Positions 39,872 through 44,672 of a DNA stretch of 55,898 bases are shown here, piece by piece (within the stretch, counting starts at the first letter, position 1; every line of letters starts with the position of its first letter). Under the pieces are notes generated by a model. The model saw nothing but the letters and a program-made list of their open reading frames with translations, made no database searches and was not told where the DNA came from. A program made the translations under genes and the position numbers. The stretch is from Planctomycetales bacterium (lineage in GTDB: Bacteria; Planctomycetota; Planctomycetia; Isosphaerales; Isosphaeraceae), in contig DAIDHX010000088.1 of the NCBI GenBank assembly GCA_027451885.1, positions 1 to 55,898 of the forward strand, given 5' to 3'.

Positions 39872-41050
39872 ATGAATCCAAAGTCAGCATCCAATAAAAA
39901 AACGGGCACGCACGCCAGGGGACCGGCGTCAAAGCCGAAGGGTGCTGACACGAAGCGAGGGCCGTCGATCGAAAGTCTCCGCCAGGAGATCGACCGGCTG
40001 GACCTCGAGATCGTGAAGCAGCTCAACCGCCGGGCCGGGGTTGCCGCCAAGATTGGCGAACTCAAGCGCCACCAGGGAATGGAGGTCTTTGCCGCCGCGC
40101 GTGAGGAAGAGGTTCTCGGCCGGGTGATTGGCTCCAGCCAGGGTCCGCTGCCGCAGGAGTCGTTGCGGATCATTTTTCGAGAGCTGATGAGCGGCTCGCG
40201 GGTTCTTCAGCGTGCCCCTCGGGTCGCGTGCCTGGGTCCCAAGTACAGTTACAGCTATCTGGCTTCCGCGGCGAAATTTGGCGAAGCGGTCGAGCATGTC
40301 CCGCTCGGCTCGATCGCGGCGGTTTTTGAGGAAGTCAATCGCCGCAATGTCCAGTTCGGGATCGTACCGCTTGAGAATTCAACGGACGGGCGGATCGCGG
40401 ACACGCTTGACATGTTCGCCAAGCTGCCGAATCTCAAGATTCGGGCTGAGGTCAAGCTCCGCGTCCATCATTGCCTGCTGGGGCGGGGCGCCTGGGGGGA
40501 AACGCGGCGGGTCTATTCCAAGTCGCAGGCGCTTTCGCAGTGCCGCGAATGGCTCGCCAAGAACCTGCCCCAGGCGGTCAAGGTCGAGGTGGTTTCGACC
40601 GCGGCCGCCGCGGAGTTCGCTCGCGCGGAGGACAACGCCGCCGCCGTGGCCAGCCGCGCCGCGGCCGCAGCCTATCAGCTTAATATTCTCGCCGAGAATA
40701 TCGAGGACAAGCAGCATAACGTCACCCGGTTCGCCGTGATCGGTGAGAACATCGGCGGCCGCACCGGCCGCGACAAAACCACGATCCTGGTCCGCCTGCC
40801 CAATGAGATCGGCTCGCTCGCGCGGGTGATCAGCCCATTCGAAAAGGCAGGCGTGAACATGACCTGGATCGAGTCGTTCCCAACCGAAAACGGGGAAAAT
40901 CAACGCGACCCGTCGTACGTCTTCTTCATGGACCTGGAAGGGCATTGCGAGGACGAGATCCTGAAGCGTGCGATCGAGGCCGCCCGCAAGCGCTGCGAGC
41001 GGCTCGATATCCTGGGCTCATACCCCCGCGGCATCTGCGTCGAAAGCTAA
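39872..41050 (+). CDS. pheA: Bifunctional chorismate mutase / prephenate dehydratase
   Basis: 392 residues. After a basic N-terminal extension (about 1-30) comes an AroQ chorismate mutase (SLRQEIDRLDLEIVKQLNRR, AAKIGELKR, to about 110), then prephenate dehydratase (ACLGPKYSYSYLAS, VPLENSTDGRIADTLD, and NVTRFAVIG), and a C-terminal ACT domain with the phenylalanine-binding WIESFP and FFMDLEGH. It takes chorismate to phenylpyruvate. Substitution: the usual GPxGTFS start of the dehydratase reads GPKYSYS. Feedback by phenylalanine through the ACT domain is expected. Its stop overlaps that of the convergent acyl-CoA synthetase. Confidence 0.94.
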   Translation: MNPKSASNKKTGTHARGPASKPKGADTKRGPSIESLRQEIDRLDLEIVKQLNRRAGVAAKIGELKRHQGMEVFAAAREEEVLGRVIGSSQGPLPQESLRIIFRELMSGSRVLQRAPRVACLGPKYSYSYLASAAKFGEAVEHVPLGSIAAVFEEVNRRNVQFGIVPLENSTDGRIADTLDMFAKLPNLKIRAEVKLRVHHCLLGRGAWGETRRVYSKSQALSQCREWLAKNLPQAVKVEVVSTAAAAEFARAEDNAAAVASRAAAAAYQLNILAENIEDKQHNVTRFAVIGENIGGRTGRDKTTILVRLPNEIGSLARVISPFEKAGVNMTWIESFPTENGENQRDPSYVFFMDLEGHCEDEILKRAIEAARKRCERLDILGSYPRGICVES

Positions 41051-41114
41051 TCCTCCCGCGGCTGATGCGTCGAAAGCGAATCCTCCCGCGGCTGATGCGT
41101 CGAAAACGAGCCGC
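41025..41114. repeat. 30-bp tandem repeat (3 units) spanning the pheA/acyl-CoA synthetase junction
   Basis: Units at 41025-41054, 41055-41084 and 41085-41114, each beginning CCCGCGGC and containing TGCGTCGAAA. Units 1 and 2 differ in few positions; unit 3 diverges at its end. Read on the minus strand they encode the terminal STHQPRED repeats of the synthetase; on the plus strand unit 1 holds the pheA stop. Confidence 0.85.
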
Positions 41115-43068
41115 CCGTCGCGGGCCGGCCAATCCCAAGCGCTGCGATGCGCTCAAGCGCAGACGGATTTTCAAGGCTTGATGAATCTCCAGGCGGCAGC
41201 CCGAGCGCTGCCTGGCGGATCAGACGGCGGAGAATCTTGCCACTGCGCGTCCTGGGCAGGTCCGCCACAAACCCCACATGGGCCGGTCGGAACGACTTCC
41301 CAAGCGCATGGGCCACGTGCGCCTTGAGCTCCGCTTCAAGCGCTGAGTCGCACAGGACCCCCGCGCGGGGCACAACCAGGCAAATGATCTCATCCCCCTT
41401 CACCGGGTCGGGTGCGGGGACGGCGGCAGACTCGGCCACCGCGGGATGAAGCGCCAGAGCTGATTCCACTTCCGCCGGCCCGATCCGCTTGCCCGCAACC
41501 TTGATCACATCGTCGCTACGACCATGCAGAAACCAGAATCCGTCCTCGTCGATCGACGCCCAGTCACCGTGCACCCACACGTCCGGAAACCGCGACCAGT
41601 ACGTCGCCAGGTATCGTTCCGGGCTGCCCCAGATTCCGCGCGTCATCGCCGGCCACGGCCTGGTGCACACGAGCTCGCCCACCCCATGTGAAAGCGGCCG
41701 GCCCTCGGGATCGAACACGTCGATCGCCATCCCGAGCGCGGGGCCGCCGACCGAGCAGGGCTTGATCGGGCAAACCGGGAGAACCGAAACCAGGCAGGCG
41801 CCCACCTCCGTGCCGCCCGAGATGTTGATAATCGGCAGTCGCCCGCCGCCGGCGTTTTCGAACAGCCAGCGCCAGGATTCGGGGTCCCAGGGCTCACCCG
41901 TCGAGGCCAGAATCCGAAGCGATGACAGGTCATGATCGCGCACCGGCTCGAGGCCATGCTTCATGAGGGCCCGGATCAAGGTCGGCGATACGCCCAGGAT
42001 TGAAACCCTGTGCCGCGCGACGATCGCCCAGAGCCGGTCGGGCGCGGGGTAGTCGGGCACACCCTCGATGAGCACGATTGTGCCCCCCGCCGCCAGGCCG
42101 CCGACGATCGTCCACGGGCCCATGATCCACCCCAGATCGGTCACCCAGCAGATGCGGTCGCTCTGCCGCATGTCCGCCTGATGGGCAGCCTCCTGGGCGA
42201 TCTTGACGAGAAACCCGCCATGCACATGCACAGCGCCCTTGGGCGCACCCGTCGTTCCCGAGGTGTAAATGATCAGCAAGGGTGTCTCCGGGTCGAGCGG
42301 CCGCGCGGGCTGGTGGGGCTCGCTCCGCTCGAGCAGGCCGTGCCAGTCGTGGATGGGCACGCGGCAGGCGGCCTTCGCCGTCCTGTGGTCCGGCTGGCCA
42401 ATCACAACCAGGTGCTCAACACAGGGGGCGGAGTCAAGCGTGAGCAAGGCCTCCGCCAGCATGTCGAGCTCACGCCCGCGCCGGCTCGTGGTCGCCGAGG
42501 CCACCAGCACCCTCGCCTGGCAGTCGACCATCCTGGACGCGACCGCGGGAGCGGCGAACCCCGAAAACACCGGGACAGCCACAGCGCCCATCTTGGCGCA
42601 GCCCATGAAAGCCGCAACCGCCTCGGGGATCAGCGGCAAGAAAAGCCCCACCCGGTCGCCTTCCACCAACCCGAGCTTCAGAAGGGCGCTCGCGAACCGC
42701 GAGGCCGCGTCATCGAGCTCGGCGTAGGTCCACTGCCGCACCTGGCCGTTCTCGGCCTCCCAGACGATCGCGGTGTGATCGGCCCGAGCGCCCCGGGCGT
42801 GCCGATCCAGGCAGTTTTCGGCCAGGTTGATCCGCCCGCCGCCAAACCAGCGCGTCCAGGCGATCCCGCCCGATGCGTCGAGCACCTGCTGGAACGGGCG
42901 GGAAAACGCGATTCCAAGCTCCTCGACCGCCTCGCGCCAGAACCACTCAATGTCCGCGCAGGAGCGCTCGATCATGTCGCGGGGCTCGCGAATCCCCAGC
43001 CGGGCCATGAACCGGCCGAGGTTCGAGCCCTGTTTCATCGTCAGGTCCGGAGTCCAGACCACGCCCAT
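41047..43068 (-). CDS. Acyl-CoA synthetase (AMP-binding, acetyl/acetoacetyl-CoA synthetase-like)
   Basis: 673 residues from the ATG at 43068 (GAGG 8 nt upstream). ANL-superfamily adenylation enzyme: N-terminal ACAS-type segment (ADIEWFWREAVEELGIAF), P-loop YTSGTTGAPKGAVHVHGGF, NISGGTEVGACL, adenylate-binding DWASIDEDGFWFLHGRSDDVIKVAGKRIGPAEVES, and the acylating lysine in TRSGKILRR. The aromatic/acetate pocket cannot be read reliably, so acetyl, propionyl or acetoacetyl remain possible. The C-terminus carries an add-on of two STHQPRED repeats encoded by a 30-bp DNA repeat. Confidence 0.9.
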   Translation of the reverse strand: MGVVWTPDLTMKQGSNLGRFMARLGIREPRDMIERSCADIEWFWREAVEELGIAFSRPFQQVLDASGGIAWTRWFGGGRINLAENCLDRHARGARADHTAIVWEAENGQVRQWTYAELDDAASRFASALLKLGLVEGDRVGLFLPLIPEAVAAFMGCAKMGAVAVPVFSGFAAPAVASRMVDCQARVLVASATTSRRGRELDMLAEALLTLDSAPCVEHLVVIGQPDHRTAKAACRVPIHDWHGLLERSEPHQPARPLDPETPLLIIYTSGTTGAPKGAVHVHGGFLVKIAQEAAHQADMRQSDRICWVTDLGWIMGPWTIVGGLAAGGTIVLIEGVPDYPAPDRLWAIVARHRVSILGVSPTLIRALMKHGLEPVRDHDLSSLRILASTGEPWDPESWRWLFENAGGGRLPIINISGGTEVGACLVSVLPVCPIKPCSVGGPALGMAIDVFDPEGRPLSHGVGELVCTRPWPAMTRGIWGSPERYLATYWSRFPDVWVHGDWASIDEDGFWFLHGRSDDVIKVAGKRIGPAEVESALALHPAVAESAAVPAPDPVKGDEIICLVVPRAGVLCDSALEAELKAHVAHALGKSFRPAHVGFVADLPRTRSGKILRRLIRQAALGLPPGDSSSLENPSALERIAALGIGRPATGGSFSTHQPREDSLSTHQPRED

Positions 43069-43187
43069 GGTCGATCCTCGCACGTTCGCTTGGTGGAGCT
43101 TGGTTCGCGGATTCTAGAATTGAGCGGACTCAGCGGAGCAGGGTCAAGCTAAGCTCTGCTGAACGCAAGGAATTTGCAAGAGCCCTC

Positions 43188-43442
43188 TCACGGCAATTTC
43201 GTCCAGAGGACGACGACCAACCATGCGAGCTCGGCGAGGCCGATCGCCAGGAAAAAGAGCGGCAACCCCAGCCGCGCACCGCGGCTCGTCCAGGTCGGTC
43301 ATGTGCCGCAGAGGCGCTTGAGCGCGGGCCTGCCCGCGCCCCCTTCGATCCCTCGTATATAACCGTAGAGCTTGATCGAGCCCAGGAGCGTGAACGTGAC
43401 GCCGGCGAGTGCAGGCGGCAGCCAGCTTGTGACCGATGCCAT
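43188..43442 (-). CDS. Small two-helix membrane protein with in-frame TGA in a CxxU motif: candidate selenoprotein
   Basis: The frame from the ATG at 43442 (GGAAAGG 8 nt upstream) runs through a TGA at 43299-43301 to a TGA at 43188-43190: 84 residues if the internal codon is read. Helix 1 is about residues 8-27 (LPPALAGVTFTLLGSIKLYG) and helix 2 about 59-80 (GLPLFFLAIGLAELAWLVVV). Between them, RLC45-G-T-U48-PTW places the TGA where a redox CxxC would have its second Cys, the hallmark layout of selenoproteins. A perfect 7-bp hairpin starts 12 nt after the TGA. Both halves look membrane-protein-like, so the frame past the TGA is meaningful. Alternative: a Cys codon mutated to stop in a pseudogene. 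Redox or metal role is inferred only from the motif. Divergent from the DAHP synthase gene. Confidence 0.55.
43270..43286 (-). promoter_or_regulatory. Putative bacterial SECIS hairpin
   Basis: On the minus strand, AGCCGCG (43286-43280), loop GTG (43279-43277), CGCGGCT (43276-43270): seven perfect pairs. The loop begins 20 nt after the TGA and starts with G, which fits the general bSECIS rules (loop about 16-37 nt from UGA, G among its first two bases). Confidence 0.45.
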
Positions 43443-43619
43443 TTTCAAGAACCTTTCCGGAATGGGACGCCCCACACCCCAGGCTGACACACTCCTGGCA
43501 AGCCAGGCCACGACTCGTCTGTTCCCGGAGTCGAGTCTTCGTTACACTTTATGGCTCGTCGCGAGGCGACGACGAGAGATGGGCCTCGAAGTGCCACCCC
43601 CCGCGTCGAGACGTGCTGG

Positions 43620-44672
43620 ATGATTATTGTACTAAAACCCCGATCCGATACTCGCGTCATCAAACATGTGCTGGAACGGATCGAGGCCCTGGGGCTGAAA
43701 CCCCATTTAAGCGAGGGCGTCGCCCGCACCATCATTGGCGTGATCGGGGACGAATCCAAGCTCTCGGCCCTACCCTTCCAGGCCATCGAGGGCGTTGAGC
43801 AGGTTGTCCCGATCTTGAAGCCCTTCAAGCTGGCGAGCCGTGAGTTCCATCCCGAGGGATCTGCTTTCGACATCAAGGGAGTGCGAATCGGCGGCGGCGG
43901 CCTGGCCGTGATCGCCGGGCCGTGCGCGATCGAGAGCGAGGAGCTCCTCTTCGAGATCGCCGCGCGCGTCCGGGCCGCGGGGGCCAATATCCTCCGCGGG
44001 GGCGCTTTCAAACCACGCACCAGCCCATACAGCTTTCAGGGCCTGGGCCGCGACGGGCTCAAAATGCTCCAGGCCGCGGGCGAACGGTTCGCCATGCCAG
44101 TCGTTACCGAGGTCATGGACCCCCGGCAAATCGAGATGGTCGTCGAGTACGCCGATATTCTTCAAATTGGCGCTCGCAACATGCAAAACTTCGACCTCCT
44201 CAAGGAATGCGGCCGGACCAGGAAGCCGGTCCTGCTCAAGCGAGGCATGAGCGCATCGGTCAAGGACCTGCTGATGTCGGCCGAATACGTGCTTTCCGAG
44301 GGCAATCGCCAGGTGATCCTCTGCGAGCGCGGGATTCGCACCTTCGAGGATTCGACCCGGAACACGCTCGACCTGTCGATCGTCCCGAATCTGCAGGGGC
44401 AAAGCCACCTGCCGATCATCGTCGATCCCAGCCACGGCACCGGCCGGCCGGACCTGATTCCGGCCATGGCGCGGGCGGCCGTCGCCGCGGGGGCTGATGG
44501 GATCCACATTGAAGTCCATTCCTGCCCGGAACGGGCGCTTTCAGATGGGCCGCAGGCGCTCGTCCCCGACCAGTTCGACCGCCTGATGCGTGAGATCCAG
44601 GCGCTCGCCGATCTGTTCGGCAAGACGATCACCAGCCGCACGGGAGAAGCTGTCGCATGCGCGCGATCCTGA
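43620..44672 (+). CDS. aroF: 3-deoxy-7-phosphoheptulonate synthase (DAHP synthase, type I-beta)
   Basis: First step of the shikimate pathway, joining phosphoenolpyruvate and erythrose 4-phosphate. 350 residues from the ATG at 43620. An N-terminal ferredoxin-like regulatory domain ([20 protein letters not shown], to about 70, as in the Thermotoga enzyme) precedes the KDO8P/DAHP barrel: [78 protein letters not shown] and VDPSHGTGR. The regulatory domain would mediate aromatic amino acid feedback. Overlaps tpiA by 16 bp. Confidence 0.95.

Follow-up and report, generated by a model that had tools for sequence, protein, structure and literature searches.

MerF is a small two-helix protein with a cysteine pair in its cytoplasmic loop, and in planctomycetes the selenocysteine (Sec) machinery is known, while selenoproteins have been little described. 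The loop of the E. coli fdhF SECIS carries G23 and U24 (numbering begins at the TGA). Regarding prokaryotic selenoproteins in general, 119 families are listed in a 2026 inventory, the hypothetical families of which carry NCBIfam identifiers (PMC13188914). The same inventory lists the CxxU bacterial selenoproteins SelW-like, AhpD-like, and GrdA, and a putative MerT-family selenoprotein with C/SxxU (PMC13188914). The bSECIS rule is given as a stem of 4–16 bp and a loop of 3–9 nt, with G among the first two loop nucleotides, at 16–37 nt from the TGA and with an energy of −7.5 kcal/mol or lower (PMC13188914, Fig. 2A).

The locus described here lies in the window, i.e., the whole stretch of 55,898 nt that was analyzed, which corresponds to contig C88 of a draft genome of 6.18 Mb with a completeness of 98%. 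A minus-strand frame at 43191–43442, starting with ATG at 43442 and followed by a terminal TGA at 43188–43190, comprises 84 residues when its sole internal stop, the TGA at codon 48 in the context RLCGT-U-PTW, is read as Sec (U), and the product is MASVTSWLPPALAGVTFTLLGSIKLYGYIRGIEGGAGRPALKRLCGTUPTWTSRGARLGLPLFFLAIGLAELAWLVVVLWTKLP. The first-pass annotation had described the frame as interrupted by this TGA alone, and all details of that description hold (Table 1). Like SelW-like, AhpD-like, and GrdA, the window gene combines an in-frame TGA and a bSECIS-type stem-loop with a CxxU motif, and has Cys homologues in organisms lacking Sec. Unlike them, its product matches none of their family models, has no thioredoxin-like fold, and is predicted to consist of two membrane helices, not a soluble domain; furthermore, the Cys forms of the new family lack the Cys at −3. 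The product resembles MerT/MerF in its very small size, its membrane location, and the Cys/Sec pair of a membrane-proximal loop, although none of the 14 members has a Pfam match to them and no mer genes were found among the scanned neighbors. Judged from sequence comparison, the gene encodes, with a probability of about 0.92, a small inner-membrane selenoprotein of Planctomycetota in which TGA48 is read as Sec. This reading is adopted because of the conserved TGA column, its replacement by Cys, the complete Sec pathway and its co-occurrence, and the conserved stem-loop with changed pairs. Comparison with homologues decides the case: the TGA column is kept, and Cys homologues replace the TGA.

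Table 1. Features of the putative selenoprotein gene, in window coordinates.
Feature	Position	Strand	Basis
Putative selenoprotein gene, 84 residues with TGA48 as Sec, plus stop	43188..43442	-	Open frame; TGA and Cys homologues; dN/dS <1 on both sides
Putative Sec codon TGA, residue 48	43299..43301	-	TGA in 11 genomes, TGC/TGT in four others, same column
C45-G46-T47-U48 motif	43299-43310	-	
First predicted transmembrane helix, residues 4-29	43356..43433	-	AlphaFold, hydrophobicity
Second predicted transmembrane helix, residues 54-81	43200..43283	-	AlphaFold, hydrophobicity
Candidate bSECIS upper stem-loop AGCCGCG-GTG-CGCGGCT	43270..43286, loop 43277-43279	-	7 pairs, G-first loop, conserved structure
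Possible ribosome-binding site GGAAAGG, 9 nt 5′ of ATG	43452..43458	-	Direct reading of sequence

Among 99 relatives searched, one homologue was found (L012), which belongs to the same genus, shares 62–63% identity, and carries one in-frame TGA. A two-row profile searched against 392 genomes of the phylum retrieved five further TGA homologues from other families and classes, and a seven-row profile searched against 397 genomes of the class retrieved four more, together with four stop-free homologues. TGA homologues accordingly occur in ten genomes besides that of the window, all of the same phylum and from at least four classes, and in all ten the TGA occupies the identical column, preceded by CGT, CGS, or RGS and followed by P. 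The first-pass annotation had regarded Cys codons aligned to the TGA as support for Sec, and the four stop-free homologues (L047–L050) carry TGC or TGT at exactly this column, in the context RL(K/Q)GR-C-P; homologues ending at the TGA position, which it had named as refuting, were not encountered among those retrieved. The four Cys homologues form one clade (support 95/96), consistent with a single Sec/Cys exchange. The whole-genome searches covered this one phylum, in which a minority of genomes carry the gene, and no homologue was detected in viral contigs or plasmids. Pattern scans of genome contigs yielded the same-genus homologue alone, the Sec-site patterns having demanded Cys codons and being blind to TGA and to divergent Cys forms. 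Matches L013, L014, L015, L022, and L051–L054 were rejected as chance or unrelated, being devoid of the family pattern or, for L053 and L054, resembling a Cys-rich zinc-type motif.

Positions F17, K24, G27, G34, G35, G46, U/C48, P49, and S53 are invariant in the 14-row alignment. The TGA had been placed by the first-pass annotation in a CxxC-like motif, which is borne out in the window (CGTU-PTW) and for the Sec/Cys position in general, but not for the Cys at −3, which is missing in the four Cys homologues and in one TGA homologue (L046). In the Cys homologues, a Cys at −6 stands in place of that at −3, and the Sec/Cys position is therefore constant while the partner Cys varies. Three of these four also have a first-helix Cys. 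These differences suggest that the Sec-to-Cys switch came with an altered partner thiol. Two TGA members are peculiar. L046 (G575, contig C512) is divergent, with RARGS-U-PSW at the site and no SelA match in its draft genome, and either SelA may have been missed by the assembly or the gene may be decaying after loss of the pathway. L021 (G297, contig C259) has no recognizable first helix upstream, possibly owing to a frameshift or a sequencing error in the draft.

Pairwise dN was lower than dS both downstream and upstream of the TGA wherever dS was computable, with downstream dN of 0.14–0.76, and the second helix is conserved among homologues. The substitution pattern indicates that the frame 3′ of the TGA is under purifying selection. 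From the TGA onward, the window and L012 share 35 identical nt, and one synonymous difference falls in the first 11 codons 3′ of the TGA, as against 14 in the 26 unchanged upstream codons.

This region contains the candidate bSECIS element. The hairpin starts 12 nt after the TGA and consists of a perfect stem of 7 bp closed by a loop of 3 nt, the first base of which lies at nucleotide 20 after the codon (23 when the TGA is counted as 1–3), so that the hairpin, its G-first loop, and its spacing were found as the first-pass annotation had described them. The element also conforms to the bSECIS rule (loop GTG, 19-nt spacing, −13.0 kcal/mol), which is passed by ten of the 11 TGA members, the exception (L045) lying above the −7.5 kcal/mol cut-off, and by none of the four Cys members; the rule alone is unselective, given that 14% of random window TGAs pass it. 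With a simple hairpin score that requires G at one of the first two positions of the loop, 0.13% of the 1538 TGA triplets of the window had an equal or better hairpin at comparable distance, and the score was 14–21 in all 11 TGA members versus 4–9 in the Cys members. A G-containing loop in the stem-loop after the TGA is shared by all TGA members and is not found in the Cys members. As in the fdhF SECIS, G23 and U24 lie in the loop in seven members, although the stem sequence is different and the members show no obvious bulged U at position 17. L018 has G23-G24 at these positions, and in L020, L021, and L046, for which the stem position was picked by eye, the GU of the loop occurs a few bases later. 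Since MAFFT misaligned one hairpin, pairs were counted by script at fixed positions: six of the seven (pairs 1, 2, 3, 4, 5, and 7) change on both sides among members with standard pairing kept. In L019, the same offset is occupied by a stem of unrelated sequence, GACGACC-GTT-GGTCGTC, which a short insertion in the protein has enabled. Compared with synonymous-codon shuffles, the energy of the stem-loop was without significance for most single members and unremarkable for G+C-rich coding sequence; position, loop G, and pair changes therefore carry the case for the hairpin.

The first-pass annotation had proposed that selA, selB, selC, and selD be sought in the genome, and all four are present. 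The tRNA-Sec has the anticodon TCA, SelB and SelD were found, and SelA occurs in two pieces on contigs C267 (6272–6622) and C315 (7125–7850) of the window genome (G000), which together cover nearly the whole model; the split at contig ends is likely an assembly break and not an absent gene. Strong SelA matches (E <1e-60) were obtained in ten of the 11 TGA-form genomes, the exception being the 790-contig draft that carries L046 (G575), and in none of the four Cys-form genomes, one of which had only a weak paralogue-like match. As these four genomes belong to one family, the co-occurrence amounts to approximately one independent contrast; furthermore, SelA is also common in relatives without the gene and is therefore no predictor of it.

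The structure of the product was predicted by AlphaFold with a 14-row alignment, resulting in a model with a mean pLDDT of 88.7 and helices at residues 4–29, 40–45 (short), and 54–81. The two long helices are predicted to span the membrane, in agreement with the membrane-protein sequence that had been noted on both flanks of the TGA. The connecting loop has a net charge between +2 and +6 in each of the 14 aligned members and the ends are near neutral, and according to the positive-inside rule this would place C45 and U48 on the cytoplasmic side. A two-helix membrane hairpin with C45 and U48 in its positively charged connecting loop is thus a confident prediction. The confident model is all-helical, without the alpha/beta arrangement of a thioredoxin-like fold, and the fold search revealed no PDB relative above the level of common helical arrangements; sequence matches in the PDB were dismissed as chance hits to zinc fingers.

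The gene is flanked by a divergent DAHP synthase gene (43551–44672) and a same-strand AMP-binding/acetyl-CoA synthetase-like gene (41047–43083). A 380-codon open frame on the plus strand at 42010–43152, antisense to the latter, is probably a by-product of the high G+C content. Upstream of the same-genus homologue lies a PEP mutase/isocitrate lyase-like gene, the remaining loci have still other neighbors, and no conserved operon partner was found among the loci checked. In L019, a thioredoxin-like gene (1030–1743), identified by eye through its sequence and a CGPC motif, lies approximately 130 nt upstream on the same strand; it is a possible electron donor, and this neighbor is limited to L019.

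One alternative, in accordance with translation table 11, takes the TGA as a genuine stop or as a nonsense mutation that leaves a 47-residue peptide or a pseudogene. A TGA kept in the same column in 11 genomes, a downstream frame under purifying selection with a conserved second helix, and relatives that have Cys where the TGA is absent render this very improbable. Read-through to a plausible protein would also be obtained if the TGA were reassigned or read non-specifically, e.g., as Trp, but TGA is also the terminal codon of the gene in the window and in several homologues, where it appears to act as a stop. Homologues have Cys and never Trp at the site, and a full Sec pathway is present in the window genome, so that this idea is scarcely credible. 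For a Sec-decoded gene, the question arises whether the family has already been described. None of the 14 members matched an NCBIfam model at E 1 or less, no Pfam model had matches to two or more members (lowest E 0.0019, to DUF6350), the MerT/MerF models (including PF02411 for the putative MerT selenoprotein) matched none of the 14, and the 119-family inventory, the hypothetical families of which have NCBIfam identifiers, names no such protein (PMC13188914). The motif combined with the word selenoprotein retrieved nothing from the open-access literature, the coverage of which is incomplete, so that an earlier description may exist elsewhere. A divergent member of a known family, e.g., a mercury carrier of the MerT/MerF type or the sparsely documented GOS_A, would account for the small size, the two helices, and the Cys/Sec pair in a cytoplasmic loop, all as in MerF, and a MerT-family selenoprotein with C/SxxU is listed (PMC13188914). 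Nevertheless, this is improbable, because no member has a convincing Pfam or NCBIfam match and no PDB fold relative stands out. The first-pass annotation knew of no described family with this layout, and none has emerged from Pfam, NCBIfam, or the inventory; on sequence grounds, the family is judged to be real and new, and apparently undescribed relative to these three sources.

A further alternative accepts the selenoprotein and concerns its role: the product may be a binder or carrier of soft metals or metalloids, or a subunit of a larger membrane complex, and not a stand-alone redox enzyme. Its mere 84 residues and two helices, the conserved Gly, Lys, and Pro besides Sec, and the non-universal partner Cys at −3 would suit such a role. 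We regard it as rather unlikely, given that selenoproteins of known function are mostly oxidoreductases (PMC2398784) and that no linked transporter or metal-resistance gene was found among the checked neighbors, the one exception being a TerB-like match of marginal strength near L019. Because of the chemistry of Sec, we favor, with reservation, a role in thiol/selenol redox chemistry on the cytoplasmic face of the membrane.

In the proposed mechanism for the selenoprotein, SelB and tRNA-Sec would decode TGA48 as selenocysteine, aided by the stem-loop, to yield the 84-residue protein, the two transmembrane helices of which would be joined by the positive loop facing the cytoplasm. Sec48, usually together with Cys45, would lie at the surface of the membrane, immediately ahead of the second helix, where the selenol could reduce, e.g., a peroxide, a disulfide, or a quinone, and a cellular thiol system would re-reduce it. 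More tentatively, the family may represent a hitherto undescribed, planctomycete-centered class of membrane-embedded selenol enzymes, comprising a two-helix hairpin with a single Sec at the cytoplasmic membrane surface, chemistry unlike that of other selenoproteins without a thioredoxin fold, and a partner Cys that moves from −3 to −6 upon Sec-to-Cys exchange.

The family would extend the list of approximately 119 prokaryotic selenoprotein families by one that is unusual in its very small size, its location in the membrane, and its lack of a thioredoxin fold. As the standard code splits the frame into a truncated ORF, ordinary annotation would miss or mutilate the gene. Furthermore, the TGA form with SelA and the Cys form without it offer a clear Sec-to-Cys exchange for study, and planctomycetes would gain a defined selenium-dependent protein to test.
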